DNA of 45,018 nucleotides, from positions 1-45,018 of IMG/VR virus record IMGVR_UViG_3300031329_000010. The stretch is one strand, 5' to 3'. Origin of the DNA: a virus. Position numbers and translations under genes: made by a program. Below the pieces are notes generated by a model. It had not been told where the DNA came from, did not search any database, and worked only from the letters and a program-made list of their open reading frames with translations. Shown here piece after piece: positions 1,643 through 38,469 of the stretch (positions are counted from its first letter, which is position 1; every line of letters begins with the position of its first letter).

Positions 1643-4600
1643 TTAGTATACGCCAACTTCCCTGTTGTAGGACCCTACTCCACCGGCAATGTCTGGGATC
1701 ATTGTAAGAACCTCTTTACGAGTTTGACGAGAGATGTCACCAGTGATGTTGATGTTAAACACCTGAGTATCCTTTGACTCTGTGGATCTATTATTAGTTC
1801 TAGCATCTTGGGTAGTTGTAACAATCTCACCCGGTTTCAGTAAGGCAGGGACCGAGTCCTTACCTACCTGAGCACCCGGGATAAGAGGAACAGTACCACC
1901 ACGGTCAGCTCCAAATCCAAATAAACTAAAAGCACTAGAAAGTATACCTGATAGACCACCTCCTCCACCGAGTCCACCGAGAATATCAAACAGGCTAGAG
2001 GTAATTCCATCAAAGAATTCTTTTATACCTGCAGTCTCAATTAAGGATGTAACAAATGCGTCAATGAAGGTGTCAACAACAGTTGAGGAGAATTTATCAG
2101 CAAAAGCCATAATACCACCTTCAAGATCACCCTCTTTGAAGACCTTTCCTAGACCCTCTCTCAGACCGTCTCTAAGCCCATCAGATAGCCTCTGAGAAGT
2201 AGACAGCATAGAGTCGAGTCTAGCTTGAGCGCTAGAAAGCTCATTGTTAGCTCTCGCAATCTCTTCCGTATTATTAGCGCTTATGAGACCACGCTCACGA
2301 ATGATACGGTTGATCTCTCTTTGGAGTTCTATTGCTCCAGCGCCACCACCAAGCACTTCAGGGCTAAACCCTGCGGCCTCTGCTGAGTTAACATTACCAT
2401 TAGACAGGATTTTCTCTATTTCAGCTTCCTGATTCCTGATAATATCAAGCTGTTGTTTACGAAGGCCAACATTGGTAAGAGCAGAGTTGTTAATACGCTT
2501 TTCTGCTGCTTCGATCTTCTTGAGCGAAGAGAAGAGTGAGTTAGTTTCTCCACCAGTTAGGCCGACTAATCCTTCTATTGTTAGACCAATATCACTTAGC
2601 AGTCTTTGAATAGGAGTATTGGTAGTACCACCGCCACCACCACCGCCATTGCTAGTATTCAGACCCCCACTAGAGATAGCATCGGAAAGAGCCTTCCCTC
2701 TTGCCTTTAACTTTTCGATTACTTTGTCAATAGTTGTATCATCAACTTCGCCACCTGCTGCAAGAGTATCGCGAGCAAATGCAGCTGACAAGAACCCAGA
2801 AGCGATTTTACCAAGATTAGAAATAAGGCTATCCGGAGCATTAAGAAGTTTATCAGCATCAATTGAGATACCTTTTAGGGCAAGAGCAGAATTAATAACT
2901 TCAATGATCTGATCACGAGTAGCTTCGCCCTTAGCAAGGTCTTCTGAGAACAACTGGATATTAGCGGATTGAGAAAGCAGGCCAAGTATTTTACTAAGCT
3001 CAGCCTCATCTTGCTTAAGATTTGCAAACAGTCTAGCATTCTCATTAGTCACAACCGGCAGAGCACCAATTGCTTCCATTTGCTCTCTAACGTTCTCAAG
3101 CTCAGTTAGAGTTGATGAGATATCAGAGAACCCACCAAGGCTGATCTTAGTTGTCTCTATGCCTTCTTGGATACCAAAACTAGTGGCATTACTAGCAATC
3201 TGAGCGATCTTAGCGGGATCAATAATATCACCGACTTCGTCCGCTAGTCTTGTAAAGTTTGCTTGAGCAGATCCATCTCGTAGCGCACTTGTAATAGTCT
3301 GTTTTAGGCTTGTTTCGGCCTCAGCCAAGAAGGATCTAGCTCTAGCAACATCACCATCGGTAGCGTCTCCAACTTGTCTTCTAGCAAGGGTATCTTCTAG
3401 ATTTCCTCTTCTCGCTAAAGCAGATGAGAACGCATCAGAGATAAGTTTAGACTCTGAAGTAGAAATTAAAGATCTGTTACCAAGAGTATTTAGGCTCTGG
3501 TCCTCAAGTGCTCTTACAGCATTCTCAAAGTTTTCAGTTGCTCTTTGTCTAGCAACAAGCTCAGGGTTCCTACGAGCGGCTTCATCAAAGTTTGAACGAG
3601 CATCTCTAACATTACGATCCCTAATAAACCCAAGAATAGGGTTAATATAATTACCCTTCATCGGGTTAAGTGTCGCATTACCAAATCGTTCTTCCGAAAG
3701 GGCAACAATCAGTTCATTGATAGAATTGGTAAGCTCTGTTGAGAACTCAGAAGGGTCTCTGTTGGCAATACCACCTAGGAGGGCGGCAGTATCTTCTCCA
3801 AACAGAGATTCTATTTGCTCCGGTGTTTGGTTTATCTGAAGGGCAGAAGCAAATCTAGTTAGACCTTCCGCTGTAACAGGTCCTTCCCCAAGTGTCTCTG
3901 CAATGTTAGCAAGAATGTCACTTTGTTTAGAGAAGTCTGATTGTTCCCCACCAAGGAATACGGTAATATCGCTAAGAAGATTTCTGAAATCAGCAAAGCC
4001 CGGTCTATTTTGAACACTTAGAGCTGCGGCAACCCCTGTATCTCTGTTAGCTGCCTCATCTGCTGCTTTATCAATAGCGGCAGTAGTTCTTTCTTGAGCG
4101 GCCTCAAGACGGCTTGTAGTCTCTGCTGTAGCACTACCATAAGTTAGAATTTCTTGGTTGTACTTGATCTGGATAGCCTCAAGACTATTAACAGAGTCAA
4201 TGATCTTACCTGCTGAAACATCACTAAGAGCTTGGAAGTTAAGAGTTTCAATACTCTCTTTGTTTCTTCTATTCTCAAATGCATTACGACCAAATTGACC
4301 GCGAGCAGCAATGGTACGAGACGTAGAACGAACATCAACCGCATTAGAAACTGTAGCTTCGTTTAAGAGGCCAAGCTTACGTCTAGCGTAGTTTATTTGG
4401 CTATCAAACTTTCCCCTGAAGGTATCTCCTTCACCAAAGATAAGTGTATAGGCAATACCGCCAACTACAACTGCAGCTGTAATAGTGGCAATAATCTTAA
4501 ATGCTAAGGTAGCAATCACACCTTTAAGAAGAGTAGGAATAGCTAAGAGCGCCCGGCTAAGTAACCCAAGGATAGCAGAACCAAAGCTTTTGGCTGTATC

Positions 4601-7087
4601 AATAGCAAGACCAAGACCAAGTTTTCTTCCAGCAAGACCTACCGCCTGCTCTACAATACCTGAACCGACAACAAGAGCAGCAATAGACGCAGCAACAATG
4701 GTAGCGACCCCGTTTGCTCCATCGCCAGAACCGGCAGAAGCCATACCTGCACCGGCAACAAGAGCAGCAATAGACGCAGCACCAACCCTACCGAAAGAAC
4801 CCATACTACGAGTAGCGCGCCTTAGTGAGGTAGGAAGACTAGAGAAGATAGCTTGCATCCTAGCTAGTGCTGGAGCTGCAAGGTTCTGTACGATACCACC
4901 CATAGCGGCAATAGCAGGAATAGCGTTTGTACGAACAGCATTACCAAATGCGTTAACTTTTTCTTTAAGATTATTTTTGCTAAAGGCATCAAAGAAGGGT
5001 TTGAACACTGGGTTAAGTACAGTACCCCCACCACGTCCTCGACGGCTAGAACCACGGCCTGCTCTCTGACCCTGAGTAGTACTAAGAGAAAGGAGACCAA
5101 TAATTCTACTTTTAAGAGTCCTACGTTGGGATACACCTAAGAGACCATCAACAAAGGTTTGACCTAGGGCTGCAGCCGCTAAGATACTTTTAAAGGTCTT
5201 AGGAAACAGTAAAGCAAAAGAAGCGATAAATGCTATAGACCCTGCAATACCTGCTTCCTTGAACAGACCTATAAGGCCTGCACCCAGAGCGGACACAAGT
5301 CCAGAGATGATAGCAGGAAGCGCTGTCACAATTTGTTTGATAGCTTCCCCAATTACCTCACCTACCATCGAACCAAAGGCAGCAAAGACCTTTGGTGATC
5401 CTACGGCTTCAACAAGATTAGCAACAAGAACCGCTAGGAACACTGGGCCAATTTTATCAGCAATTTTGCCAAAGGCTTTAGTGATAGTCCCTGTACTAAA
5501 GGCAAAGGTAAACGCTGCTAGGATAGCTGTAGTAAAGGTTTTTCTAATCTCAGGGGCAAGACTTCTGATTGCATCGACACCTCTAGAGAATCCCCCAGAA
5601 ACAGCATCGATAATAGTTTGCCTGATCGATTGAATACTTTGAGCGGTGGCAGTTAGGTCAATATCAAAGTTTAACCTCCCCCGACCAGCGCTGTAGATAG
5701 CTTTAAAGGCACTAGTAACGTCATTAGCGAATGATTTTACTTTATTGAGAACAACCGGGAGATATTTATCTGCTAGGTTGGCAATACCCTCCATTGTATC
5801 TGTCCAGTAAGAATTACCAACAACTTTCTCATAGATATTAAAGAAGAATTCAATTACGTCTGAAGCAAAGTCTCTCACAACTCTAGCTGCATCACCTAGG
5901 TAAATAACAGCGAAGTCTCTAACATTTCTGAAAGTTCGTTCTAAGAACTGGAATGCGGAGGTATCACTTAGTCTGTTGAATTGGTCCTTTATAAAGTCTA
6001 TTGAGCTACCAAAGTTGTTTTCTATGATATCAGAGATGGTTCTCATAGACACTCTGGCAGCATCTATCATACCTTTATAAATGCCTTCTAGTCCTTCTAG
6101 TCCTTCATACAGGCTAGAGATATCAAAAGAAGACAGAGACTTTTTCATTACCCCTAAACCAGAAACAAAGTCTTTAACAACCCTACCGATTATCTTTGGG
6201 ATCTCTGCTAGTCTATTTCTCCATTCTACTACGGAAGCAACAATAGATTCTCTGTTACCAGCAATAGCATTTGTTAACCTAGAAATTTTATTTGTAAATG
6301 AACTAGTAATTCCTAGCGCTTTAGATAGTTCAGCAGTAAGTCTACCTACTTGGTCCCCGAGAAGAACAAATGCTTTACCAGAAGTAAGCTCAATGTTCTC
6401 AAACTCTTTAGCGACAGCCTCAGACTGCCCAAGCAGGGCCGAGAATACAACATCAGAAGTCAGCTTACCATCAGCCGCAAGACCACGAAGCGCGCCGCGA
6501 GCTACACCCATGTTATCCGCGATGGCCGTAGCGACACGAGGTAGCTGCTCTAGCACCGAGTTAAGCTCTTCACCCCTCAGTGTACCAGCAGACAGACCCT
6601 GCCCTAGCTGTACCAGAGCAGCCCTCTGTGACTCTACAGAACCACCAGAGATAGCAGCGGCTTGGTTTAGCGTGATAATAGACTTATTAATGTCCTGAAT
6701 TGACCTGCCAGTACCCTTTAGGGATTGTCCCATACGGTTAAAGGCTTGGGCGGTGGATTGTACAGGGGCTTTAGTCTGTAAAGAAATCCTGTAGATCGTA
6801 TCCATCTGTTTAGCTAGTTCTTCACCACGACCAACAACCAGAGCAACTTGGTTCTCCATGTCAACAAAGTTATCTGTTGCCCGGTTAATACCTCTTGTAA
6901 GAGCTGTACCGGCGAATGCGGCAGCAATACCAGTGGCTAGCCTTGCAATGTTCTTTGTAGCACTAGCGGCGGTGTTTCCAACGCTCTTAAAGTCACCGTT
7001 TAGTCTACGGATATCTTGACGTGCTTTAGCAGTGTCAGCCGTAACGCGAATACGGACGCCGCGCCCCGGTCCTGTGGGTAATACCAT
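1643..7087 (-). CDS. Tape measure protein
   Basis: At 1814 residues this is the longest ORF in the window. The N-terminus has a tape-measure-like start (basic, then DIRRLNGDFKSVGNTAAS, then the TMP_N-type region VPAQAFNRMGQ-like/LSAGTLRGEELNSVLEQLP around residues 100-200). The centre has long helical and hydrophobic stretches (about residues 510-900), including several candidate membrane-spanning segments. The C-terminus has the GG-rich hydrophobic tail and the motif PGAQVGKDSVPALLKPGEIV found at the end of many phage tape measures. It sets tail length and is ejected with DNA. It follows the frameshifted chaperone genes, the canonical order. Confidence 0.95.
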   Translation of the reverse strand: MVLPTGPGRGVRIRVTADTAKARQDIRRLNGDFKSVGNTAASATKNIARLATGIAAAFAGTALTRGINRATDNFVDMENQVALVVGRGEELAKQMDTIYRISLQTKAPVQSTAQAFNRMGQSLKGTGRSIQDINKSIITLNQAAAISGGSVESQRAALVQLGQGLSAGTLRGEELNSVLEQLPRVATAIADNMGVARGALRGLAADGKLTSDVVFSALLGQSEAVAKEFENIELTSGKAFVLLGDQVGRLTAELSKALGITSSFTNKISRLTNAIAGNRESIVASVVEWRNRLAEIPKIIGRVVKDFVSGLGVMKKSLSSFDISSLYEGLEGLEGIYKGMIDAARVSMRTISDIIENNFGSSIDFIKDQFNRLSDTSAFQFLERTFRNVRDFAVIYLGDAARVVRDFASDVIEFFFNIYEKVVGNSYWTDTMEGIANLADKYLPVVLNKVKSFANDVTSAFKAIYSAGRGRLNFDIDLTATAQSIQSIRQTIIDAVSGGFSRGVDAIRSLAPEIRKTFTTAILAAFTFAFSTGTITKAFGKIADKIGPVFLAVLVANLVEAVGSPKVFAAFGSMVGEVIGEAIKQIVTALPAIISGLVSALGAGLIGLFKEAGIAGSIAFIASFALLFPKTFKSILAAAALGQTFVDGLLGVSQRRTLKSRIIGLLSLSTTQGQRAGRGSSRRGRGGGTVLNPVFKPFFDAFSKNNLKEKVNAFGNAVRTNAIPAIAAMGGIVQNLAAPALARMQAIFSSLPTSLRRATRSMGSFGRVGAASIAALVAGAGMASAGSGDGANGVATIVAASIAALVVGSGIVEQAVGLAGRKLGLGLAIDTAKSFGSAILGLLSRALLAIPTLLKGVIATLAFKIIATITAAVVVGGIAYTLIFGEGDTFRGKFDSQINYARRKLGLLNEATVSNAVDVRSTSRTIAARGQFGRNAFENRRNKESIETLNFQALSDVSAGKIIDSVNSLEAIQIKYNQEILTYGSATAETTSRLEAAQERTTAAIDKAADEAANRDTGVAAALSVQNRPGFADFRNLLSDITVFLGGEQSDFSKQSDILANIAETLGEGPVTAEGLTRFASALQINQTPEQIESLFGEDTAALLGGIANRDPSEFSTELTNSINELIVALSEERFGNATLNPMKGNYINPILGFIRDRNVRDARSNFDEAARRNPELVARQRATENFENAVRALEDQSLNTLGNRSLISTSESKLISDAFSSALARRGNLEDTLARRQVGDATDGDVARARSFLAEAETSLKQTITSALRDGSAQANFTRLADEVGDIIDPAKIAQIASNATSFGIQEGIETTKISLGGFSDISSTLTELENVREQMEAIGALPVVTNENARLFANLKQDEAELSKILGLLSQSANIQLFSEDLAKGEATRDQIIEVINSALALKGISIDADKLLNAPDSLISNLGKIASGFLSAAFARDTLAAGGEVDDTTIDKVIEKLKARGKALSDAISSGGLNTSNGGGGGGGTTNTPIQRLLSDIGLTIEGLVGLTGGETNSLFSSLKKIEAAEKRINNSALTNVGLRKQQLDIIRNQEAEIEKILSNGNVNSAEAAGFSPEVLGGGAGAIELQREINRIIRERGLISANNTEEIARANNELSSAQARLDSMLSTSQRLSDGLRDGLREGLGKVFKEGDLEGGIMAFADKFSSTVVDTFIDAFVTSLIETAGIKEFFDGITSSLFDILGGLGGGGGLSGILSSAFSLFGFGADRGGTVPLIPGAQVGKDSVPALLKPGEIVTTTQDARTNNRSTESKDTQVFNINITGDISRQTRKEVLTMIPDIAGGVGSYNREVGVY

Positions 7088-8430: not shown

Positions 8431-8450
8431 ACCCCCGAGGGGGCCTCCTC
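8431..8450 (-). other. GC-rich hairpin at the 5' end of the transcript from P8450
   Basis: Immediately after the predicted start site the RNA folds into a CCCCC/GGGGG stem with a 2-nt loop, extended by imperfect GAG/CTC pairs. No U-run follows. It could stabilise the new mRNA or act as a weak terminator for the tail tube transcript. Confidence 0.5.
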
Positions 8451-8464
8451 TTTAACGTCACCTA
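8449..8464 (-). promoter_or_regulatory. Phage-type (SP6-like) promoter P8450
   Basis: This is an exact copy of TAGGTGACGTTAAAGA; by alignment with SP6, +1 is the G at 8450. It lies between the tail tube gene and the tail chaperone operon. Its AATTAGGT is also the right arm of a perfect inverted repeat whose left arm (ACCTAATT) covers the tail tube stop codon, so the core can be drawn into a hairpin. Confidence 0.8.
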
Positions 8465-10281: not shown

Positions 10282-11400
10282 TTATGCGTGGTAAATTGGA
10301 AGGATCGGCAGGTTTAGAGCCGAAACTTTACGTGTCCAAGAAGCTGCTGCAGAGAAAGTAGCGTTAGTAGCAAACGCGTCCTCAGCACCAGCCCAAGCAT
10401 AACCCTCAGGGTGCCACACGTAACCCCAACGGTACCAGATCTCAGTCTTACCACCACCAAGGTAGACAGACGCATCACGATCTATCTCAACCGGAGTTGG
10501 GATTTCAATCGGAGCGAAAGAAACAGAGTTGGGTTTCAGAAGGAAAGTACACTTAGTAGACCGTGCGTTTAGATCGCCAGCACTAACCGATGCCATCTGA
10601 GTAAAACGAGTAGGCAGTAGGCGGAATTTACCATCAAAGATAGTAGTGAATTCCAGTTCACCGTCCGTTACTCGGTCCTCATCAACAAGGTTAGCAGCGC
10701 GGATCTGTGCAAGGGTCTCCGGAGAGGTAACCATGTACATGTAGTCCGGTTCGTAGTCCTTAAACGCCATACCAATTGCTTGGAACAGACGCTCACCACG
10801 AGCAGCACCAACACCCGATGCATCAAACAGCTTACGCTGATCAGGTGCACCGGTTGCAGCAGAACCAAATACGGCGGAAGAAGCGTTGAGATCAACAAAG
10901 AAACCAGTTGCTGTGGCATCAGGGTCAGTATCAAAGTCTACAAGACCACCCTCACCTGCATCGCTAGCATCACCTAGGGCGACCTCTGAACGAGCAACAC
11001 CTTGTAGGACGTTGTAGAAGGCTTTGCCTTCGTCTTCCATACGTGTCTGTGCGAAGTCACGAGCAATCTTTTTAAGCCCGTCTTCACCAGAGATCACTTG
11101 TTGCACGTTAACTTGCTCAGCACCGTGCGAACGAGCGGTCTTGATGTATTTTGCAAGGTTAGTGCTGATGTTTGTCATTGTACCTTCAGTGTCGTCAGTT
11201 GTTGACATGACGTTGACTTCCGGCTCAAGAGGCTTGTACCAACGGAACTGGCCAATATAGCTTTCTGAGTTACCGTCAATACCCTCACGAGTACCTACGA
11301 CACCAGTCGTGTGGATGTTTTTGGAAGTAGTGTACGCTTCGTGTGAGTACTGACGTAGTACTTCCTCAATGACCTGAAAGTTAGCATTAGAGATAGGCAT
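10282..11400 (-). CDS. Major capsid protein
   Basis: The 372-residue protein follows the scaffold gene. It carries features of the HK97-fold family without an obvious cleaved prodomain: an N-terminal helix region, a long spine-like helix region with AEQVNVQQVISGEDG and FAQTRMEDEGKAFYNVLQG, and a C-terminal domain ending TRKVSALNLPILPIYHA. It forms the icosahedral shell. No prohead protease gene is visible nearby, which suggests scaffold release without proteolysis. Confidence 0.9.
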   Translation of the reverse strand: MPISNANFQVIEEVLRQYSHEAYTTSKNIHTTGVVGTREGIDGNSESYIGQFRWYKPLEPEVNVMSTTDDTEGTMTNISTNLAKYIKTARSHGAEQVNVQQVISGEDGLKKIARDFAQTRMEDEGKAFYNVLQGVARSEVALGDASDAGEGGLVDFDTDPDATATGFFVDLNASSAVFGSAATGAPDQRKLFDASGVGAARGERLFQAIGMAFKDYEPDYMYMVTSPETLAQIRAANLVDEDRVTDGELEFTTIFDGKFRLLPTRFTQMASVSAGDLNARSTKCTFLLKPNSVSFAPIEIPTPVEIDRDASVYLGGGKTEIWYRWGYVWHPEGYAWAGAEDAFATNATFSAAASWTRKVSALNLPILPIYHA

Positions 11401-11421: not shown

Positions 11422-12186
11422 TCATCGGACGCCCAATTTCTTTCGTGTTTGGGCTATCATCTGATCTTGTGGAACATCGAAAATCGATTTAGGTTTGTCT
11501 TGAGGCACACTTGTCGAAGTCATCGACGTAGTAGAACTCCCAGTATTTTGCTTCGGTTTGAAAAGAAACCTGTTTTCTTCATCTTCTAGATAACTAGAAA
11601 CAGTAGACTCGATGTCTTTACCATCGCGAGAGACCCAACGACCACTGTCGTCTTGAATAAGAGAATCAACAATGTCCCGACGTGCAGATGCGCGAGCACG
11701 ATCGTTACGGAATTCTGCAGTACTTAGAGAAGCGTCAACGGCGTTATCACGACGAAGACTCACGTTTTCACCCCTTAGAGTTTCTAGTTCAGAATTCATA
11801 TCAGAGATCTGCGCTTCTAGCGCTTCTTTGTCTTTACCTGCTGATTTCATAGCTTCAATCTCAGCTTCCCTCTCACGCTTTTTAGTGTCTTTGAGTTCTG
11901 CTTGGGTATCTTTGAGTTTCTTATCAAGAGCATCCATCTTTTCTTTGAATTGCTGTTTCAAAACCTCAAGCTCTGAATCTTCTTTCTTATTCTTGTCTTT
12001 TTCTTTGTTCTTATTATCAGAGCCATCAACGTCAGCGTCCGCATCAGTTGTTTCCTCTTTGATATCATCTTCAGTGTTTCCGTTTTCGTCATCTTCGTTT
12101 GAAGCATTATCTTTTTCGGATTGAGCATCATCAATTTTCTTACGAAGCTCTTCCATTTGTGCTTTGAGTTCTTCTTTAGTAGCCAT
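11422..12186 (-). CDS. Capsid scaffold protein
   Basis: The protein is about 254 residues from the ATG at 12186, which has AGGAGA 9 nt upstream. It is almost entirely charged coiled coil (KEELKAQMEELRKKIDDAQ, then KEKMDALDKKLKDTQAELK) with a very acidic D/E-rich stretch. It ends in a short conserved-looking tail (PKSIFDVPQDQMIAQTRKKLG). This fits an internal scaffold directing capsid assembly. It sits between the MuF-polymerase and major capsid genes, the expected place. Confidence 0.85.
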   Translation of the reverse strand: MATKEELKAQMEELRKKIDDAQSEKDNASNEDDENGNTEDDIKEETTDADADVDGSDNKNKEKDKNKKEDSELEVLKQQFKEKMDALDKKLKDTQAELKDTKKREREAEIEAMKSAGKDKEALEAQISDMNSELETLRGENVSLRRDNAVDASLSTAEFRNDRARASARRDIVDSLIQDDSGRWVSRDGKDIESTVSSYLEDEENRFLFKPKQNTGSSTTSMTSTSVPQDKPKSIFDVPQDQMIAQTRKKLGVR

Positions 12187-12247
12187 TAAAATTTCTCCTA
12201 CAGTCACTGACTGTGTTAGCCGTTGAGTTACAAACTCTCAGGTCGAA

Positions 12248-15200
12248 TTAGGGTCCTACACCATAAAAATCTTTATTAGGTACGTCCGTCAATATGTCTT
12301 TCCTAGTTATAGGGTTAGGCGGATCAATAAGACCAAGTTGTTTTGCTTCAGCGAGAAGTTCATCGTAGGTAGCCTTAGGCAACCCCTCTTTTCGCATTTC
12401 AGCAAGAGTTCTTCGGATAGTATCCCCCTCTAGGGCATCCGCATAGATTTCACGGAGAGCAGCTTTAGCGTTATCTGCTTCCGCTAGATTAGTAAAGAAA
12501 GCGTCGTGGATTGTACCAGTAGACTTGCCCTCTTTGCGGCCCCACAAGTGGAACTTGCGAACAATAACCGCGTCGTTAGAATGGTTTCCATTCACACCCA
12601 GACCAATAGAAGCATCTTGGACAGATCCTTTTCCAAGGAGCTTGCCGTCTTCAGCTTGTGCTGCATAGATGTTCATAACCTTTCGTCCTGTTATGGGATC
12701 CCTGAATTCAATTCTCTCTTGAAGTTCCGGTCGGTATCTTTGTGTCATAACCTTACCGTCAAAAGTCACCCACGGGATGTCTACCTTTTTAGTTTCAGTT
12801 GTAAAGCGTTTAGATACTCTTTTCCAGAAATTAATGAATTCATTTGTAACAGGTGCTCTGTCAGACAGCTTCTCTGACATTAGCGCAGAAAGTTCTTTAA
12901 AGTCATTTGGGCCAATCAGGCCTCCACGAGCACTAGTCACCTTAGCAACAAAGTCTGCCGTGTCGCTGTGAATTTCTTCTGCTTCTTTTAGAAGCCTTAG
13001 ACCAATAGACTGGTCCTTGTTCACCATATTGATAAGCTCACCCCTAAAGGCTTTCAGATTAGCTGAAGTAAGTTCTGCACCAATCCTATCTGCTTGTTTG
13101 ATCTGTGAATCAATTATCCTAAGCTGACCGCTTAGCTCTGATTTAGTAATTGTAGTAAAGCCTTTTTCATCTAGAAGTTTAGATAGCTTTGCTGCAACGT
13201 TAGCGGTCTTAGTTGCCTCACCGGCACCGTAGAAACTTACCCAATTTGTTCAATGGGGTGGTTATTCCCATCCGCATAACAATAACTTAGCTATGCTGCT
13301 ACATGTTTCCATGCAGATCAGACTATATCATCAACCTCTCTGTAGTAGGTTGCCCTGCGCTTCCACTCGACACTTGAGTGTACTCCTCTCGGATAGTCGT
13401 TGAACGTTCCTTATACAATACTATAGTATTGTATGAGGCTTCGCTGCTGATTGTCTTCACCGTTACGTGGTCAGAGTTTCCAGCAATTCACAGGGTTTAA
13501 AGAACACAATATAAGTTTATGTTCTGCGCTTTAGCACCTTTAGCAAGATCCTCCCAAGTCAAGTTCGCGTCACGGAGCGCCTTAATCTTGTTGAAACGAG
13601 GATCATTAATGGTGTCAATAGCCACTAGGTCATAGAGTCTATTCTTTTGTGTCGTAGGAACAACGTTAGAGGCTTCCGAGACCATACGGTCCCCAGTAGA
13701 AAGCCCGATAATTTGTGCACCAGAGGACGACGCATCGTTCTCTATCATAAGACGTGTTTTAAATGATTTGAGTTTAGCAGCATCTCTCATGTCGCCGCCA
13801 ACGTGGTCATATACACGAGCATACTCTAAAGCCATACGAGACATCTTAGGTACCTCGGGTCCTTCTAGACCCTTGATTAGGGGGTGTTCTAGGAACTCCC
13901 TCATACGCCTGTCTCTCTGGGTTTCTTGCTGCATTAGCCTTCCTAGAGAAAGAATGTCTTCCCGCTTTCTCTGAAAGATAGCCTTACGACCACTAAGGGT
14001 AAGAGCCTCTGTACCGGGTCCAATCATAGCTCCAATCTGGGTTTCTAGCTCATCTACTGCATTGAGAGTCATTGGAGTAGCAATAGCATCATCTAAAAAG
14101 GGTCGAACCATCTCACCACCAGTAGGTGTCAGGTATCCACGGTGGTAGACACGGCCACGGCTATCCATGTATGTATCCGACCAAAAGGGTTTACCACGAT
14201 TTGTCTGGTACCTGCCTGCTGTCATGAAACCAAAGCCTTGGTCACCACGTTTGATGATCTCGTGTCTAAACTCATTAAGGCCATCGTAGTAATCTGTGTT
14301 ACCGCGAGGGTCACGGAACCTAACAACATCATCCATAAAGTTAAAGAACACCGGATCTGTTTGGTATTGTGTACCAGAGGCTTGGTTTAGAGCATTAGCA
14401 AAGTCTGCATCAACCTGATTTGCGTCAAAGCTAGCGTACTTACGTCTAGATATGATAGGTCTGCCGGTAACATTACCACGAGCATCAAAGGCTTCCTTCT
14501 TACCAGCGCGGACAAACTGCCTATCTCTATCAAAAGAAATACCCATACGTCTGCCAACAACAACTCGTCTTTCAGCCTTCTGTAGCTCAATAAGACGTTT
14601 GTCGATTACCTCAACCTCTCTAGAAACTGTGTCTCCCCAGAAGCCTGTGGCACGACCTGTCTCTACATCTAGAACACCTCTGCGGGTCTTACCACGGTAG
14701 TTGAGACGGATCATCTTTCTGTCCTTCATGTAATCAAGGACTCTGGAACCGTCTTTGTGGTAGTCTTGTAAAGTGTGTTTCTGGAATGGGTTAACATCTT
14801 CTAGATCTTTTGCCATTTGTTTACCAATAGCAATAGAAAGACCGTCGTAGTCTGTCATTTGTCCAGAACCAACAAGCTTTACTGCTTTAGAAAGAGAGTT
14901 GAGTACTTTGTCATCCATTACCTTTGATGTAGGATTCTTCTTAGATGTAAGAAATTCAAAGTCAATAATTCTACGAATACGTTCATCGATACCACGTTCA
15001 AATCTAACAGCTAATTCGTCTGTGGGTGTTCTATACCATTTTAAGTACTTAGCAAATGAGGTTTTCTCCCAACGCTTCTTAAGTGTTTCGGGTTTCTTGA
15101 CTTTTCCCAGAAGACCTTGGAAATAAGACCTTGGTGGGCTTTTCCCTCTGAAGTAAAGCTCTTTCGAGAGTTTAGCTCCAACACCAATACGGAAGGAATC

Positions 15201-17003
15201 AATAGACCTCTGATCTGCAAGAAGTCTATCCTGTAGCTGATCAATCTTGTAGTAATCACCCATAAGCTGGACTTGAGGTCCTCCTTCTTTAGCACCAAAG
15301 AAGCGAGAAAATAAGTTGTATTTATCTCTCTGTCTAGTATCAAGAAGACGGGCAGTGTTCTGAACAGCAAATCTATTTTCTGCTCTAAGTACATTAGCAA
15401 AGTTGTCCCAAGGCTGCTTGTCTTTCCTAGCTCGCTCTATTACAACCCTAAGGTTTTCAATAGCAACTGTTTGCTGATTTGTTGACACTTTCTCTTCTAA
15501 GGAGTTAATCACAGATCCAATGAAGTCTTTATCTTCAGATTGGAGGACTTTAGAGTTCCTCATGAAGTCAAGACGTTCTTGTAGAAGTGTGTAGTTAGGA
15601 TCATAAAGGTTGTTGTTTCTTGCCTCACCTGTAAGGGGGTCGAAGCTATTATTACTTTCATCGAAGATGTTAGCTGTACGGCGACGAGCGGTTTGTTTAC
15701 CTTGCAGTGTTGTACCTTTAAAGTCCGTTAGAGAGTAAGTTTTACCGAGATCATCAGCATCATTGACAAATAGATCTACAACCTCTCGCTTATACTTAGC
15801 ATTCCTGACGAGGGTGCTAGGGCGCGCCACAGCGATCTGTGTTACGACATCTTCACCTATCGACTGCTTAGGGCGGAAAATGTTAGTAAGATTAGCAGCA
15901 CGACGTCTCAAAGCAGTAATAGAGAGTGCGCTACCTTGAGGTGTCACGAAGTTATCGGCTTTGACTTCTCCTTTTCGGAAAAGATCTGCCTTTTCTTGAC
16001 TACCAAGGATCTTTGTTTGGACATCATAAGCCTGACGTTTAAGCCACTGACCAAAGGTTTCTTTCTCTGGGGGAGATCCTGTTAAAGAACTTCCTTTCGT
16101 GGTTTCAAGAGCAGCTAAATTGATCCTATCAGACTCTTTCTTTAGCAGTTCGGCTTTGCTCTCAAATATAGGAACAAGGGTAGAACGGCAGTTAAAGTGT
16201 AGTGGAGGGGCAAAACGCCTATCACCTACATCATAGATCTTACCATCATGATAACGACAAATGCTAGAAGTACGATTATCAAGCATTGCTTGGAACATGT
16301 AGCCTTTGATGGCTTCCTTGTTTTCCCCTACCGCACTAAACAGAGCATCGCGCTGCGTAGCTGTGATACCTGTACGAGAAAGAGTACCCGCTTGGTGGGC
16401 TGTCATCTTGGTTGTTTTGCTGACGTCACTAATAATTTGATTTTGAGACTTATTATCTCTACGACCACGCTTCAACCAAGTTTGTACCCTAGTTGTCTCA
16501 CCACGAGCAATGTTCTCTACGTTATTTTTGATAGCAGCATCACCGTTGATACTAGCGCCAGTAATATCTGCTAGATCAGCCTTGTTCTTAGGTCTACGAA
16601 CGGAGAACCATCCTTTAGTGTGTTTTGAGATACTATCAGTGTAGAAATCTACCTCAGCACCATGTAGCTCTGTCAAATTTGTCTTCTGCCAAGAAAAGAG
16701 CTCTGTAGCAAAACGGTTTTGCTCTCGTCTGAATTTGTTGGCTATTTTCTTCTTTTGATCAATAGTAGTTGTTGCTAAGTCTTCCTTAACAAGCTTAACT
16801 AGAGACTCACGATGACGATTTACAATACGACTATTACCAATCTGAATGCTCTCTTCGAACTTTCTAACGTCAGTAAGGTGATCAATCACCTCGTCGTTCA
16901 TTTTCTGTGTAACATCCATTCTAGCAATCTCCTGATTGGTAAGTTTGGTGGAATGAACCGCACAGTCCTTGCAAAAGACCGTCGCCCCCTTAGAACATGT
17001 CAC
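12248..17003 (-). CDS. MuF head-morphogenesis / single-subunit RNA polymerase fusion (intron-split)
   Basis: The spliced gene, join(12248..13241,13519..17003) on the minus strand, encodes 1492 residues. Residues about 168-280 are a MuF/SPP1 gp7-like domain, with LDNRTSSICRYHDGKIY and PPLHFNCRSTLVPI. From about residue 900 on it is a T7/N4-type RNA polymerase: DSRGRVY (about 947), motif A DASSSGAQ (catalytic D1090), motif B K1158 to Y1166-G1167, and motif C IHDAF (H1407, D1408). A long helical, basic linker joins the two. MuF proteins bind the portal inside the head and can be ejected with DNA, so a virion RNA polymerase is implied. The GTG at 17003 lacks a good ribosome site. The ATG at 16919 has CAGGAG 9 nt upstream and may be the true start, in which case residue numbers drop by 28. 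Confidence 0.9.
13242..13518 (-). ncRNA. Group I self-splicing intron (277 nt, no ORF)
   Basis: The minus-strand RNA contains the four conserved core elements. P is AAUUGCUGGAAAC and pairs with Q (ACAAUCAGCAGCGAAGCC) to form P4. R is GUUCAACGACUAUC and pairs through GACUAU with S (GAUAUAGUC) to form P7. P1 is formed by 5' exon AGAACAU and guide GUGUUCU, ending in the required U.G pair. The intron ends in G. Excision joins AA CAU to GGUAAG and restores the frame (N-M-V-S-F-Y-G). The intron lacks an endonuclease ORF. It interrupts the polymerase coding sequence exactly in motif B. It could be read as a frameshift or pseudogene if missed. Confidence 0.95.
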
Positions 17004-17093
17004 CCCGTTTTATGATTTTTGCCTGCAGCTTTCTTGGCATAACGTTTTCACCCTGCATTTAACTTGCCTAAGGCAGCAAAGAGTAATTATGGC

Positions 17094-17164
17094 CGACCCG
17101 GAAGGACTCGAACCCTCACTTGAAGATTAGAAGTCAACTGTTCTATCCTGTTGAACTACGGATC
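17094..17164 (-). tRNA. tRNA-Arg (UCU)
   Basis: D-arm (GTTC/GAAC), T-arm with TTCGAGT and a 7-nt anticodon loop CTTCTAA give anticodon UCU, reading AGA. The acceptor has one mismatch and the anticodon stem has two U.U mismatches, so folding is weaker than normal. CCA is not encoded directly after the discriminator. It is the last member of the cluster before the MuF-polymerase gene. Confidence 0.8.
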
Positions 17165-17217
17165 AATGTATAGTGTTTATAGTTTATGTGTGTCGTATCC
17201 TAGCTTAATCTTATGTA

Positions 17218-17293
17218 TGGTGGTCCTGCCGGGACTCGAACCCAGATATTACGATTATAAGTTGTACGCTCTAACCAGTTGAGCTACAAGACA
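17218..17293 (-). tRNA. tRNA-Ile (UAU)
   Basis: Good D- and T-arms (GCTC/GAGC; CTGGG TTCGAGT CCCGG), an encoded CCA and loop CTTATAA give anticodon UAU for the rare AUA codon. The acceptor has a position 1-72 mismatch and a T.G pair; one anticodon-stem mismatch is present. Confidence 0.8.
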
Positions 17294-17306
17294 TTGATTA
17301 TTAAAT

Positions 17307-17393
17307 TGGTACGGGTAGAGGGAGTCGAACCCCCACGTCTTTTAAAACACTAGGACCTAAACCTAGCGCGGCTACCTATTTCGCCATACCCGC
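17307..17393 (-). tRNA. tRNA-Leu (UAG)
   Basis: This is a class II tRNA with a long variable arm, perfect CTAGG/CCTAG anticodon stem, loop TTTAGGT, GCGGGTA acceptor and encoded CCA. The anticodon UAG reads CUA and other CUN codons. It looks fully functional. Confidence 0.93.
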
Positions 17394-17394
17394 A

Positions 17395-17471
17395 TGGTCC
17401 CCCACCCCGGACTCGAACCGGGAGAACCGGCAGTTTAAGTGCCGTACGGTTACCAATTACGTCAGTGGGGA
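17395..17471 (-). tRNA. tRNA with UAA anticodon (Leu UUA) but class I shape
   Basis: A well-paired acceptor (TCCCCAC/GTGGGGG), perfect anticodon stem CGGCA/TGCCG with loop CTTAAAC, a 5-bp T-stem and encoded CCA are present. The anticodon UAA should read UUA leucine. The variable region is only about 5 nt, whereas bacterial leucine tRNAs normally have a long arm. Amino acid identity is therefore uncertain. Confidence 0.8.
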
Positions 17472-17489
17472 ATGGTACCGTGTAATTAG

Positions 17490-17564
17490 TGGTGGAAAGG
17501 GGAAGAATCGAACTTCCTACGCGCAGGGCTTCAACCTACCGCTCTACCTCTGAGCTAATCGGGT
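17490..17564 (-). tRNA. tRNA-Phe (GAA) with unpaired acceptor arms
   Basis: The D-arm, T-arm (GGAAG TTCGATT CTTCC), anticodon stem and loop TTGAAGC, and encoded CCA are all normal; the anticodon is GAA. The 5' acceptor strand ACCCGAT does not pair with the 3' strand CCTTTCC at any position. It is probably a recombinant or dead tRNA, unless it is edited. Confidence 0.65.
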
Positions 17565-17576
17565 AAATATAAATAA

Positions 17577-17630
17577 TGGCAGCTTAGGTAGGACTCGAAC
17601 ATACATGTGTTACCAGTCAGCCACTAAGCT
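17577..17630 (-). tRNA. 54-nt tRNA-like element lacking an anticodon arm
   Basis: A perfect 7-bp acceptor (AGCTTAG/CTAAGCT) with encoded GCCA encloses a D-loop-like part (ACTGGTAA) and a T-loop (TTCGAGT), but nothing corresponding to an anticodon arm. It is either a deleted tRNA or a functional tRNA mimic. Confidence 0.5.
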
Positions 17631-17636
17631 ATTAGT

Positions 17637-17783
17637 CTATCCAGCGATGAGAGCAAGAAAGATCACAAAAGCTATTGCCCCGCCACCTACAAGGAGACCA
17701 AGTGATTTAGTCTTAGACCAAGCTTTTACTTTATCTTTTGCTTCGATGACTTTTTCCTTTGCTGTATCAATGATGTCTTTCAT
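17637..17783 (-). CDS. Small membrane protein inside the tRNA cluster (48 aa)
   Basis: From the ATG at 17783 (AGGAGA upstream) the protein has an amphipathic charged helix (DIIDTAKEKVIEAKDKVKAW) and then one transmembrane helix (LGLLVGGGAIAFVIFLALIAG). A longer reading frame runs back through the fMet-type tRNA and is unlikely to be translated. The family is unknown. A single-span membrane peptide here could act in lysis or membrane perturbation, but nothing shows this. Confidence 0.6.
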   Translation of the reverse strand: MKDIIDTAKEKVIEAKDKVKAWSKTKSLGLLVGGGAIAFVIFLALIAG

Positions 17784-17806
17784 TGTATATCTCCTGATAT
17801 CGAATA

Positions 17807-17881
17807 TGGTTGCGCAGAGGGGAGTTGAACCCCTAGTACAGGCCTTATGAGGGCCGCGTGTTACCATTACACCACCGCGCG
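17807..17881 (-). tRNA. tRNA-Met, initiator-like (CAU)
   Basis: Loop CTCATAA gives anticodon CAU. The acceptor begins with C1 facing A72 and continues GCGCGG/CTGCGC, with A73 and encoded CCA. The C1xA72 mismatch and three G-C pairs next to the anticodon loop are hallmarks of formyl-methionine initiator tRNA. The D-stem lacks the usual A11-U24 pair. Confidence 0.8.
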
Positions 17882-17946: not shown

Positions 17947-19560
17947 TTATTCTTGTACTTGTCCACCGTAGTCATTCATAGATCGAGCCATTTGGGCTAC
18001 AGGGTCAGCCCTAATCTCGCTTACACCCTTTTCATCGTTGTAGTCGCCCGGAATGAAATCATTCTCTTTAGCGATATTAATAAAGACAGAACGAGGAATA
18101 AGGCCCATCTGGTACCACTCTGTAACAAGACGCATACCATCTTCACCCTGAGCCTGAGGACTAAAGTCCTTAGACATAGCAAAGTCAATATCTTCTGCTG
18201 TTAGTTCAAGATCGTAGCGCCAGTTAATCATAAACGCAATAACAGACCGCATAGTATTAGAAATCTTCATATTAAGAGTACCAAGAGTGGCTGTCTGTGA
18301 TGAGTTACGAAGCTCTAGTGCAATACCCGACTCTGTTGTCTCTGGGGCAAGCATACGAATACCCAGCTTAGCTAGTTCCTCTAGAGTTTGTTCAATAGAG
18401 TCCTTCATATCGCTAAGAGCAGCGGTAGGAGGAGTGAGAACATCCGCTGTAACACCGCTAGGAAGGAACATCATAGTACCTAAACCTTGGCTAGCAATCT
18501 TCTGCTGTTCACCCTCTTCAATGTCTCCTATAAAGATAGGTGTGTAGGTAGCTGCGCCATACATCAAGTGGTTACGCCTAGAGATCTTATTGTAAAGGCC
18601 AATTTCTCGGTTAACAAAGGTTAATAGGATAGGCTCTTCAATATGAGTTTCACCGTCGAGAGGCCAAGCAGGGATACGTGCAAGACGCTTACCAAACTGT
18701 TGTGGTTTAAAAGTTTCATAAAGTTCATAACCAGTCTCTTCAATCCCTTCTTTTCCGGGTTTAAGACTGTTGTCAGTAATTTCTCCACCTTGAGCAGTGG
18801 CTGTAGAATTATTTTCTTTACGATACTCATCAACAACTAGAAAACCTTCCCTATCAATGTAATGATCTCTTACGGTACTGACTAAGGTAGGATGCCAAGG
18901 GTTGTCATTTTTGTATACCGGAGTATAAAAACGAGTAATAAACCGTGTCATAGCCGGTAGGCCTGTAACGGGATGATATCCCTCAATAACGTTGATCACA
19001 TTCTCTGCTGAAATAAGAGAAGGATAAGGCTTTACATAGTTTGCCTGCTTTGGAGTCATGTTCTCAGTTTCTTCTGGGGATACAGAAGGAACATCAACAT
19101 AAATCCATGAATATGAAGTTTGCATCTCTTCCCAGACTGCGTCATCAAGAAAGTGAAACAGAGACTGATTGTCAGAAGTAAATCTGTGTCTAATCCAGTC
19201 AATCATTTCCATCCTTAGAGTCTCTGGAATTTCATCAGGAAGTTCAAGATTAGATTCTTTTCTTAATAGAGCACCAGTCATTGAACGAGCGTACTGAGCA
19301 GTAACCCCCGGTAGTTCAGCTTCATCTTTATAGAAATTGTATTGATTTTGATCCATAGTAGGCGAGAAAGGAAGCAAGATGTTCCTCTTATTGCCATCAT
19401 GATCAATGTCATGAACAATCTCATCGTGGGCCTTTACAGCCTCTTGGCCTCGGACCACAGCTCGGCACTTCGCCCAAGTCGATCTAATAGAATCGTATTG
19501 ATAGGACGGAGTACCCACACTCGACTTGTTTACAGAGGTCGAGAGAGTAATTTTGGCCAT
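17947..19560 (-). CDS. Portal protein (DUF4055-like)
   Basis: The 537-residue protein resembles the DUF4055 portal family of siphophages in length and in segments such as QNQYNFYKDEAELPGVTAQY, an N-terminal WAKCRAVVRGQEAV region and the C-terminal IALELRNSSQTATLGTLNMK helix region. It forms the dodecameric DNA channel and docks the terminase. It directly precedes the tRNAs and the MuF-polymerase gene. Portal-MuF adjacency is standard in phages and supports a portal-bound location for that fusion. Confidence 0.9.
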   Translation of the reverse strand: MAKITLSTSVNKSSVGTPSYQYDSIRSTWAKCRAVVRGQEAVKAHDEIVHDIDHDGNKRNILLPFSPTMDQNQYNFYKDEAELPGVTAQYARSMTGALLRKESNLELPDEIPETLRMEMIDWIRHRFTSDNQSLFHFLDDAVWEEMQTSYSWIYVDVPSVSPEETENMTPKQANYVKPYPSLISAENVINVIEGYHPVTGLPAMTRFITRFYTPVYKNDNPWHPTLVSTVRDHYIDREGFLVVDEYRKENNSTATAQGGEITDNSLKPGKEGIEETGYELYETFKPQQFGKRLARIPAWPLDGETHIEEPILLTFVNREIGLYNKISRRNHLMYGAATYTPIFIGDIEEGEQQKIASQGLGTMMFLPSGVTADVLTPPTAALSDMKDSIEQTLEELAKLGIRMLAPETTESGIALELRNSSQTATLGTLNMKISNTMRSVIAFMINWRYDLELTAEDIDFAMSKDFSPQAQGEDGMRLVTEWYQMGLIPRSVFINIAKENDFIPGDYNDEKGVSEIRADPVAQMARSMNDYGGQVQE

Positions 19561-19610: not shown

Positions 19611-19626
19611 TCTTTAACACATCGTA
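19611..19626 (-). promoter_or_regulatory. Variant phage-type promoter P19612
   Basis: TACGATGTGTTAAAGA keeps GTTAAAGA and the AT-rich upstream flank but replaces the AGGTGAC block by ACGATGT. It is the promoter closest to the portal gene (51 nt to its start). Confidence 0.5.
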
Positions 19627-19762
19627 TTTTTGTTTTGTCTGCTGTAGGATCCTCTCTTGAGATCTAAGGCTTGAGGCTCTTTAAAAGTACTTGTTTAAGC
19701 TATCAACAAACAACAATGCTTTCGATTCAAGAGAGGTCCTCTTAGGGTCTCTTCTTAGCATC

Positions 19763-19785
19763 TACTGACTCCGATCTCGTCAGTA
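19763..19785 (-). repeat. Conserved hairpin, copy 1
   Basis: A 7-bp stem TACTGAC/GTCAGTA closes an invariant 9-nt loop GAGATCGGA. Three other copies in the window have the same loop. No U-tract follows, so a protein-binding or processing site is as likely as a terminator. Confidence 0.75.
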
Positions 19786-19821
19786 AGGTCCCTAGTTAGG
19801 ATTCTTAAGGGTTTTCCCCTC

Positions 19822-19837
19822 TCTTTAACGTCACCTA
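19822..19837 (-). promoter_or_regulatory. Phage-type (SP6-like) promoter P19823
   Basis: This is an exact copy of TAGGTGACGTTAAAGA followed by GAGGGG. Just upstream are an extra small hairpin (GTCTTT/AAAGAC) and a TAGACA-18-TAGATA pair. It drives towards the portal, tRNAs and MuF-polymerase. Confidence 0.85.
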
Positions 19838-19903
19838 TTTATGTCTTTATTTACAAAGACTTATCTACCCTAAAACCATGAGTTTTGTCTAAATTTAGCC
19901 TCC

Positions 19904-19926
19904 TACTGACTCCGATCTCGTCAGTA
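19904..19926 (-). repeat. Conserved hairpin, copy 2
   Basis: It has the same stem TACTGAC/GTCAGTA and loop GAGATCGGA as the other copies, located between promoters P19969 and P19823. Confidence 0.75.
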
Positions 19927-19967
19927 AGGTCCCTAGTTAGGATTCTTTAGATTTTCTTTTTTCCTCT

Positions 19968-19983
19968 TCTTTAACGCATCGTA
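19968..19983 (-). promoter_or_regulatory. Variant phage-type promoter P19969
   Basis: TACGATGCGTTAAAGA followed by AGAGGA. It is preceded by a long hairpin (8-bp AATGAAAA/TTTTCATT stem) and AAGATAA. It shares the 3' half of the SP6-like promoters but has a diverged recognition block. Confidence 0.5.
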
Positions 19984-27634: not shown

Positions 27635-27861
27635 ACTCTTCTCCTAGTAAGTGAGGGAGGACCCTAAGGTTTCCCCCTCTCTTTAACGTCACCTAATTAT
27701 GTGATAAAAAACAAACCCTTAGTTACTCCCTTTTTTTTTTTTTTCACTTTGAAGCTTAAGACTTGCTCCAAGACTTGTGAGTAAGTCAATTGGGCTTCCT
27801 TTAAAGAGCCGCTAAATGGACGGCCCCGGACAGTGTGTCCTGATCTTGGTTTGTCGTGTTG
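27635..27861. other. Intergenic region with promoter and poly(T)
   Basis: It holds promoter P27681, a T15 homopolymer on the plus strand (near 27731-27745), and otherwise no supported gene. It separates the GC-rich tail-fibre block from the AT-rich tail-tip operon. Confidence 0.6.
27680..27695 (-). promoter_or_regulatory. Phage-type (SP6-like) promoter P27681
   Basis: This is an exact copy of TAGGTGACGTTAAAGA followed by GAGGGGGAAA, 46 nt upstream of the NlpC/P60-like gene. It lacks the hairpin modules of the other arrays. Confidence 0.85.
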
Positions 27862-34158: not shown

Positions 34159-35496
34159 CTAGAAAGTAGAAGTCTTAACAACGCCTACACTACCGCTACG
34201 AATAGGGTAGTTATACTCTGTATAGTACCTAATAGCATCAGACCAGTGTTCGACCCCCTCGGTCTTATTGATTTGTGCTGTATCTGGGTTATTCTCTAGC
34301 CAAGACGTGCGCTCCATAGAACGAACAGTGTTAAGCATACGAGGGTGAAAGTACATATTAACATCCCCGTTAGCGTTCTTAAGCTGAGCGTTAACTGCGT
34401 TAGTACTATCTATGATAGCTGGAGATGCCTCTCTAACCCTTACGGTTAGACCAGCCTTACGAAGAATACTGAAGTCGGTCTCCCCAGAGGCAGAGGTCTT
34501 ACGACTCTTACCTGTAGGGTCCGGGTAGACGATTACCTTATGCCCATTCTTTACGTATTTACTTACGAGGGACTTAGCGACCGAATCAGTATCAGGATGG
34601 CCACTAAGTTCGTGCAGCCAATGCGTCTGATTACCACGGCGAGCGCCGATAGCTGAAGCCATAATACCGATGTTGAAGTCCATTGCAACATGAACATCTT
34701 CTCCTTTCTGGATGTCAGGTAGAGCAGAGTCTACGTGATCATTACGATTAAACATATAGAACAGGTTGTTACCAGAGTCTTTAAATGATGCTTCATACTC
34801 TCTTGCAAACTTAAGAGGGTCTAGAGTCATCTTAGCTCGTTGAATCTCATCAGGATCTAGGTAGGGTGATTGTCTATAGTTAAAGTGGTAAGAACCCCAA
34901 GCGTTGTCATTCTCTTTCCTATTGAACATCTCATAGAAATAGTCATGACCCCTTGGTGTACTAATAACAATAGCACGACCGGGAAAAGGACTATTCCACT
35001 TCTTTTGCATCATAGGGGACCAACGAGTAGTAACACAAGGCTCGATTACCGACTCCCAGCTTTCCTTTAGGTTAGTACCTGCACCCTTCCAAGAACAGAC
35101 CTCATCAAGAATAACAAGGTATTGTCCTGTACCGCGCATACGCTCTGAAGCCTCGTAAGACCAGAGCTTAAGCATAACGTTGTTAGGGAGCCAAAACTGA
35201 CCAGCAGATCTACTATGTTTAACAGCAAAGTCCTCTAGACCGAGCTGCCAAGCAAGCAGCGGATAGTAAATATCCACCACCTGCTGATAGGTAGGGGCAA
35301 TAATAGCAACGTTCTTGTTAGGAACATCGGCTGGCATGTTAACTAGTTCTTGAACTGCCTGTAGCGCCGTAGTGCCAGCGAAATAAGACTTACCCCAACC
35401 TCGGGCAGCGCAAACCACACCATAACGGTATTTTCCATCAACCATAACATCTTTAAACACTCTACTTTGACCGGGGTGTAGTTTAATACTTGGCAT
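34159..35496 (-). CDS. terL: Terminase large subunit
   Basis: The 445-residue protein has the ATPase Walker A ARGWGKS (31-37), Walker B LVILDE (127-132), coupling motif STPRGHD (179-185) and nuclease acidic residues (AMDF, D273; YPDPTGKS, D326). It powers DNA packaging through the portal and cuts genome ends. It follows the putative small terminase and a group of small genes. Confidence 0.95.
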   Translation of the reverse strand: MPSIKLHPGQSRVFKDVMVDGKYRYGVVCAARGWGKSYFAGTTALQAVQELVNMPADVPNKNVAIIAPTYQQVVDIYYPLLAWQLGLEDFAVKHSRSAGQFWLPNNVMLKLWSYEASERMRGTGQYLVILDEVCSWKGAGTNLKESWESVIEPCVTTRWSPMMQKKWNSPFPGRAIVISTPRGHDYFYEMFNRKENDNAWGSYHFNYRQSPYLDPDEIQRAKMTLDPLKFAREYEASFKDSGNNLFYMFNRNDHVDSALPDIQKGEDVHVAMDFNIGIMASAIGARRGNQTHWLHELSGHPDTDSVAKSLVSKYVKNGHKVIVYPDPTGKSRKTSASGETDFSILRKAGLTVRVREASPAIIDSTNAVNAQLKNANGDVNMYFHPRMLNTVRSMERTSWLENNPDTAQINKTEGVEHWSDAIRYYTEYNYPIRSGSVGVVKTSTF

Positions 35497-38199: not shown

Positions 38200-38215
38200 T
38201 CTTTAACGTCACCTA
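38200..38215 (-). promoter_or_regulatory. Phage-type (SP6-like) promoter P38201
   Basis: An exact copy of TAGGTGACGTTAAAGA followed by AGAGGG. Upstream at 38240-38270 lie TTAACA and TAGATAA separated by 18 nt. Confidence 0.85.
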
Positions 38216-38428: not shown

Positions 38429-38469
38429 AAGGCCCCTAGTTAGGACCCCTATTTAGGGGTTTTCCCCCT

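Follow-up and report, generated by a model that had tools for sequence, protein, structure and literature searches.

A MuF head-morphogenesis domain fused to a T7-type RNA polymerase, a probable virion polymerase of long-tailed phages

The MuF-RNAP gene and its group I intron

The sequence studied is IMG/VR virus record IMGVR_UViG_3300031329_000010, positions 1–45,018; this whole 45,018-nucleotide stretch is called the window, and coordinates refer to it unless another contig is named. Its minus strand carries, at 16919–12248, a gene of two exons around a group I intron, whose 1464-residue product, estimated at 165 kDa, joins a MuF (SPP1 gp7-like) domain to a single-subunit RNA polymerase (RNAP). 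We call this gene MuF-RNAP. It appears as two minus-strand open reading frames (ORFs), 13497–17003 and 12248–13027, and an earlier note on this DNA had read them as one spliced frame carrying both domains. This reading holds. The Rfam group I intron family RF00028 matched 13299–13528 on the minus strand with 103.1 bits and an E value of 8.6e-26 (gathering score 50), and removal of 277 nt restores the frame.

Exon 1 (13519–16919) is an open frame from the ATG at 16919 and encodes residues 1–1133 and two bases of codon 1134. The intron (13242–13518, 277 nt) lies inside catalytic motif B and contains no ORF reaching 60 aa, and exon 2 (12248–13241) supplies the remainder of motif B, motif C, the C-terminus YGVGP and the stop codon. 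We placed the splice sites by the reading frame, the U that closes the 5′ exon and the G that closes the intron; exon 1 is then predicted to end in AACAT at 13519 and exon 2 to begin with GGTAAG at 13241, in a single open frame. With an RF00028 core, the expected U and G at the two boundaries and a restored frame, the intron is presumably spliced out. The predicted join reads NMVSFYG, and the intron-less homologue of phage DSS3_VP1 reads NMVTFYG without interruption.

The GTG at 17003 that the earlier note took as the start, for a protein of residues 1–1492, is probably 28 codons too early. The start codon is most likely the ATG at 16919, because it is preceded by AGGAG, is used at the same place in DSS3_VP1 and is the only conserved start that is Shine-Dalgarno-like in most rows. 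Among 53 relatives of the DSS3-like clade described below, 52 have a start codon at the residue-1 column and 41 a Shine-Dalgarno-like stretch ahead of it, compared with 7 at the column that ranks second. The test is uninformative for the 54 EBPR-like rows, where the true start itself went undetected. The extra 28 residues of the GTG reading carry three of that reading's five cysteines, unlike the rest of the protein.

Domains, predicted fold and active site

Profile searches of the spliced protein recovered both domains that had been proposed from the letters alone. Pfam matched Phage_Mu_F (PF04233) at residues 185–276 (E = 6.5e-11, 43.4 bits, cut-off 29.6), which are residues 157–248 when counted from ATG 16919 (16176–16451, minus strand); this domain holds the protein's only two cysteines (221 and 244). 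In the same run, RNA_pol (PF00940) matched residues 1077–1447 (E = 3.9e-8, 33.0 bits, cut-off 22); the 3′ ORF alone scored 19 bits, under the cut-off. PHROGs gave a head morphogenesis match at 24–371 (E = 2.4e-45) and an RNA polymerase match at 936–1197 (E = 2.2e-27). A profile built from three relatives matched T7 RNAP in the PDB (E = 2.3e-8); DxxGR, motif A and motif C followed one another as in T7, although each aligned stretch was weak by itself. The MuF–polymerase fusion is real.

The polymerase fold was predicted by AlphaFold2 for the intact homologue L011, which is DSS3_VP1 as present in IMG/VR. The model of its residues 292–1463 (mean predicted local distance difference test score, pLDDT, 80.4) fits T7 RNAP with a Z score of 30.5 (517 residues, 3.6 Å, model residues 263–1170), mitochondrial RNAP with 26.8 and N4 virion RNAP (2po4) with 17.0, and Foldseek matched it to T7 RNAP with an E value of 1.5e-19. 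Because the model fits T7 RNAP and mitochondrial RNAP better than N4 virion RNAP, the polymerase part is, by predicted fold, a full T7-type enzyme and not an N4-type one. Of the label "T7/N4-type" used in the earlier note, the first half is thus kept, and N4 is not the best name for the fold. In the window the fold spans 12251–15240 on the minus strand with the intron inside it; the left end is approximate and taken from the homologue model. A second model, of 640 window residues from ATG 16919, reached a pLDDT of 85.6 and had no match in the PDB at E ≤ 0.001, which is uninformative on the MuF domain either way.

All four polymerase motifs named in the earlier note could be aligned to T7 RNAP in a multiple alignment. 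The DxxGR motif DSRGRVY (14145–14165, residue 919) falls in the T7 R425 region, motif A, DASSSGAQ (13713–13736, residue 1062), at T7 D537, and motif C, IHDAF (12497–12511, residue 1378), at T7 H811–D812, all on the minus strand; motif B is the one split by the intron. The equivalents of T7 R425, D537, Y571, K631, Y639, H784, H811 and D812 are kept in the aligned rows and are invariant in a 70-row alignment. Here and below we presume the functional roles known for the T7 residues (R425, D537, R627 and others). Motifs A, B, C and DxxGR are present in 80/80 DSS3-like loci, DxxGR with small variants.

Conservation of the fusion

Relatives of the polymerase part are common in IMG/VR. In INPHARED (50,697 records) the polymerase part was found in four records: DSS3_VP1 (two), DSS3_PM1 (one) and EBPR siphovirus 1 (one). 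A pattern search of IMG/VR returned at least 599 stretches, and 526 of the matches listed encode relatives. We kept 167 loci, comprising seven near-identical to the window, 80 DSS3-like and 80 EBPR-like; the last two are sister clades about 32% identical. With the polymerase part alone as query we retrieved 160 of the 167, and all full-length ORFs come from these. A full-length ORF is present in 107 loci (53 DSS3-like, 54 EBPR-like), and blastp found the MuF segment in every one (107/107), the cultured roseophage DSS3_VP1 included. Because relatives retrieved through the polymerase part alone all hold the MuF part as well, the fusion is, as judged from sequence, general in a widespread group of long-tailed phages. 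The other 60 loci are cut by contig ends, split by introns or broken, and two of them, L133 and L046, look frameshifted. Among the seven loci near-identical to the window, five show both exons with the intron between them and two are cut off. A scan of bacterial genomes gave two relatives among 74 pattern matches, both in one metagenome-assembled genome of a gammaproteobacterium, with no sign of a prophage at that sensitivity.

In a phylogenetic tree the fused polymerases form one clade. The stand-alone polymerases that these phages also encode group with those of T7, SP6, VP3 and Kolga, so that a derivation of the fused enzyme from the phage's own second RNAP is unsupported. The tree joins N4 virion RNAP to the fused clade with support of 99/98 on a branch of length 10, a placement flagged as at risk of long-branch artefact.

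In L034 (6570–6977) and L080 (1705–2112), about 136 extra residues directly follow the MuF domain; they gave no Pfam match above the cut-off.

Genomic context and a second RNA polymerase

The window is the structural part of a tailed-phage genome, with its main genes on the minus strand. MuF-RNAP sits between the portal and capsid genes, both here and in DSS3_VP1. Upstream of it lies the portal protein gene (17947–19560; phrog_145, E = 3e-43), with five tRNA genes (Arg, Ile, Leu, Leu, Met) and one partial Rfam match in between (17090–17881); DSS3_VP1 has a single tRNA-Asn in place of this cluster. Directly downstream is a gene for an acidic coiled-coil protein (11422–12207), a possible scaffold whose match to PF06810 (Phage_scaffold, E = 0.0019) is weak and below the cut-off, and which precedes the major head protein gene (10282–11400; phrog_247, E = 7.4e-24). 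A tape measure protein of 1814 residues (1643–7087) and, in the gene list, a terminase (34159–35496) are encoded on the same strand.

DSS3_VP1 also encodes a stand-alone T7-like RNAP (PF00940, E = 8.5e-83). With this protein as query we found a counterpart in seven of 20 contigs, many of them short. A PF00940 search of 15 chosen contigs of 43–82 kb, the DSS3_VP1 contig included, detected a stand-alone T7-like RNAP besides the fused one in 14; the exception was a 44-kb record, G015. Three of the 14 (G006, G022 and G028) have the stand-alone gene in split form. One of them, G006, matches the window with 99.8% identity over 31 kb, and its fused gene runs off the contig end. Because so close a relative carries the stand-alone enzyme, the phage of the window very likely has both polymerases.

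Sites of the form TA(G/C)GNNN(C/T)GTTAAAG, which we take to resemble the SP6 promoter, occur eight times on the minus strand of the window and never on the plus strand (mean 0.03 in 100 simulated sequences). They lie at 8450–8464, 19612–19983, 27681–27695 and 38201–38592, and three of them (19969–19983, 19823–19837 and 19612–19626) are upstream of the portal and MuF-RNAP genes. The motif emerged from a search of the intergenic regions of DSS3_VP1, where the same pattern finds 12 sites and none on the other strand; there, too, three sites lie just upstream of the portal gene. From this position, the operon containing MuF-RNAP may be transcribed by the second RNAP, as far as a polymerase can be assigned to a promoter from its sequence. 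Two spellings occur in the window, TAGGTGACGTTAAAGA (six sites) and TACGATGYGTTAAAGA (two sites), and they might belong to two polymerases. The 29.4–45.9 kb region of DSS3_VP1, which holds the second RNAP gene at 42.4 kb, has only two loose matches, at 41311 (four mismatches) and 38531, both within genes. The motif was absent around the second RNAP gene of five relatives, in stretches of 14–16 kb, and a de novo motif search gave no clear substitute.

Cysteine content

The polymerase part, about 1170–1240 residues, has no cysteine in 53/53 DSS3-like and 52/54 EBPR-like proteins, and the remaining two have one each. Two or three cysteines remain in the part ahead of the polymerase. Counts in ten stand-alone RNAPs range from 6 to 13: 7–12 in the second RNAPs of five phages, 12 in T7, 10 in SP6, 10 in VP3, 6 in Kolga and 13 in N4 RNAPII. 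The N4 virion RNAP domain has none, and absence of cysteine is used as one sign of an N4-like virion RNAP in excerpts of PMC10747016. The tape measure proteins of the window (0 in 1814 residues) and of DSS3_VP1 (0 in 1655) are also free of cysteine, and 27 coding sequences chosen from the 108 annotated in DSS3_VP1, its tape measure included, have a pooled 7.2 per 1000 residues.

Proposed role

We think it probable that MuF-RNAP encodes a virion RNA polymerase that is bound at the portal, ejected into the cell and reads early genes. A virion polymerase for the first genes is the best reading because the gene lies among head genes, the MuF domain offers an anchor, the polymerase part is free of cysteine and the phage has a separate RNAP; packaging and ejection in particular are favoured by the gene position, the second stand-alone RNAP and the loss of cysteines. 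The MuF domain would bind the portal and bring a few polymerase copies into the procapsid, as with SPP1 gp7. At infection the protein would leave the head through the long tail along with the DNA, in extended form, and a polymerase part without cysteines would form no disulphides in the periplasm. It would then refold in the cytoplasm and transcribe early phage genes, including the gene of the second T7-like RNAP, which in turn would read later operons from SP6-like promoters, among them the one from which further MuF-RNAP is produced. In the window, motifs B and C come together only once the group I intron is spliced out.

Several observations weigh against this proposal. Promoter searches yielded no site specific to the fused enzyme. 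Sigma-70-like sites, from which host RNAP might read the early genes, numbered 9 in the stretch scanned, where chance alone predicts 10.0. Structural proteins that are not ejected are cysteine-poor as well (portal 1/537, coat 1/373, putative scaffold 0/248), and so is the cytoplasmic ribonucleotide reductase beta subunit (0 in 323). Because low cysteine is common to non-ejected proteins, the cysteine pattern fits ejection and is not proof of it. Full activity is called into question by the T7 R627 equivalent, which is Ala in the window and in 80/80 DSS3-like loci, and by the T7 C-terminal FAFA, which is swapped for YGhG in the fused polymerase; the stand-alone second RNAP retains R627 and a FAFA-like end. 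The overall interpretation in the earlier note, a polymerase packaged and injected by its tether to a head-morphogenesis protein, is accordingly supported in part: the predicted fold and, for the DSS3-like clade, the lack of a conserved internal start with a Shine-Dalgarno-like stretch speak for it, as do gene position, the second RNAP and cysteine loss, whereas the missing active-site Arg of the window's clade and a fold that is T7-like rather than N4-like limit that support.

A late role in the producing cell is an improbable alternative, although it accounts for some of the same data. Produced along with the head proteins, the fused polymerase would transcribe late genes or act in packaging at the portal, where MuF would keep it, and would not be ejected; the position among head genes and the SP6-like sites upstream of the portal gene suit such a role. 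Yet a stand-alone T7-like RNAP is already present in 14 of the 15 long contigs, and the disappearance of all cysteines over about 1170 residues suits passage through the periplasm better than work in the cytoplasm.

Somewhat less credible still is a polymerase fold retained as a structural or DNA-binding ejection protein that has lost catalysis. The missing R627 equivalent of the DSS3 clade and the absent FAFA end fit such a protein, but both catalytic Asp residues, Lys and Tyr of motif B, the Arg of DxxGR and the His residues do not vary across two clades about 32% identical, and the R627 equivalent is Arg in the EBPR-like rows of the alignment. It is very unlikely that the fusion is only genetic, with MuF and polymerase arising as two proteins through an internal start or a protease cut: proteolysis is possible, an unspliced message would give a truncated product of 1140 residues (as computed) and the start-site test says little for the 54 EBPR-like rows, but in the DSS3-like clade, for which that test is informative, internal start columns are Shine-Dalgarno-like in at most 7 of 53 rows versus 41 at residue 1, and conservation holds up all along the region that joins the two domains (residues 301–700, 43–71% identity to DSS3_VP1 per 100 residues versus 47–77% elsewhere).

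We also considered a broader form of the virion polymerase proposal, which we regard as possible but rather doubtful. It holds that these phages form a large lineage that evolved, apart from N4, phiKZ-like and P23-45-like phages, a T7-type virion polymerase tethered in the head and threaded through the tail with its polymerase part free of cysteine; this enzyme would start infection without host RNAP, read the first genes, possibly pull the genome in, and hand over to a second T7-type enzyme with SP6-like promoters.

DNA containing deoxyuridine (dU-DNA), which DSS3_VP1 has according to excerpts of PMC12697855, was rejected as a general reason for a virion polymerase: the DSS3_VP1 deaminase was found in only two of the 15 long contigs, the record of DSS3_VP1 itself and one match at 30% identity, and not in G006.

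Relation to known systems

Both halves of the proposed arrangement have precedents. The portions of PMC6316719 and PMC5512222 on SPP1 gp7 describe a protein that is carried into the procapsid interior by the portal protein and aids infection, and MuF–toxin fusions are proposed to exploit this route. MuF-RNAP resembles MuF–effector fusions (toxins, PBECR, RelA/SpoT, 2H) in its PF04233 domain, its place after the portal gene and a C-terminal cargo expected in the head; it differs in that the cargo is a whole single-subunit RNA polymerase.

Like N4 virion RNAP (gp50), the MuF-RNAP protein contains a cysteine-free RNAP domain of the single-subunit type within a longer chain, and its gene lies among virion genes in a phage with a second RNAP. 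The N4 protein, however, is about 3500 aa long and has N- and C-terminal regions of its own around the polymerase, compared with 1464 aa and a MuF N-terminus here, the fold here is nearer to T7 RNAP by the Z scores given above, and the phages described here have a long-tail tape measure. P23-45, as presented in excerpts of PMC10770324, is another long-tailed phage whose virion RNAP is joined to a structural protein and succeeded by a non-virion RNAP, but its virion enzyme is a two-barrel polymerase homologous to cellular RNAPs and is carried on the tape measure, whereas here a T7-type enzyme is attached to a portal-associated head protein. A virion RNAP followed by a second one also divides the work in N4, on the evidence of excerpts from PMC4496689 and PMC12633501; a split of work between the two RNAPs here would match N4 and P23-45.

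With the T7 and SP6 RNAPs (Autographiviridae), the fused polymerase shares fold and catalytic residues, and both the second RNAP and the SP6-like sites belong to this type. The T7 enzyme, gp1, acts early, is not part of the virion and, unlike the fused polymerase, has 12 cysteines. The orthologous genes of DSS3_VP1 and DSS3_PM1 (Naomviridae) and of EBPR siphovirus 1 occupy the same kind of place, and in GenBank/RefSeq the gene is named "minor head protein-like protein", "head morphogenesis" or "head protein".

Virion RNAPs and MuF effectors are thus already known; their combination is new among the literature searched, as far as excerpts of it go. Among the matches listed, the open literature does not describe the fusion; the founding paper on DSS3_VP1 (Rihtman 2021) lies outside that scope, and a prior mention is possible there. 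It is not described for Shewanella phage KASIA, StenR_269 or the CHAB-I-5 phage in the excerpts that treat them, and the part of a polyvalent-protein survey that covers N4-like virion RNAPs puts these in N4-like phages only (PMC5512222).

If the virion role is right, it adds an architecture for carrying a polymerase into the cell beside those of N4, the giant two-barrel enzymes and P23-45, with a T7-type enzyme recruited as virion polymerase. The proposal can be tested directly in DSS3_VP1, a roseophage available as an isolate, whose gene has no intron. Hundreds of metagenomic phages would need reannotation, since what is called a "minor head protein" in them is a polymerase. Absence of cysteine may serve as an easily read sequence mark of ejected phage proteins, and the fused enzyme is a possible new T7-type polymerase for in vitro applications.

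Introns and repeats in related phages

Group I introns repeatedly target conserved motifs in both polymerase genes of these phages. Intron sites were located at L003:9011–9237, L180:2414–2647, L181:10456–10640 (minus strand) and L199:1742–1938, besides 13242–13518 in the window, and the DSS3 phages have no intron at the place of the window's. In EBPR siphovirus 1, motif B of MuF-RNAP holds an HNH-bearing intron (40.5 bits, under the gathering score), inserted 3 nt farther downstream than in the window, and the intron of L180 interrupts the VN-NHSND stretch of MuF-RNAP (EBPR residue 1377). The second RNAP is interrupted at motif B in G022 and at DxxGR, with an HNH-like ORF, in G006. In L198 (G028:17800–21300) its frame, like that of G022, ends shortly past KRNTMTLPL (motif B), and Rfam gave no match at the gathering score for this break. 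Inteins, suspected in the second RNAP of two relatives, were ruled out, as the frames are split.

Short repeats of the GATGCGCGGGTCTACGGC type, mostly at 36-nt spacing, occupy about 40859–41182 on the minus strand of the window, and other short repeats occur in G006, near 656–1837 of the reverse complement of L181.

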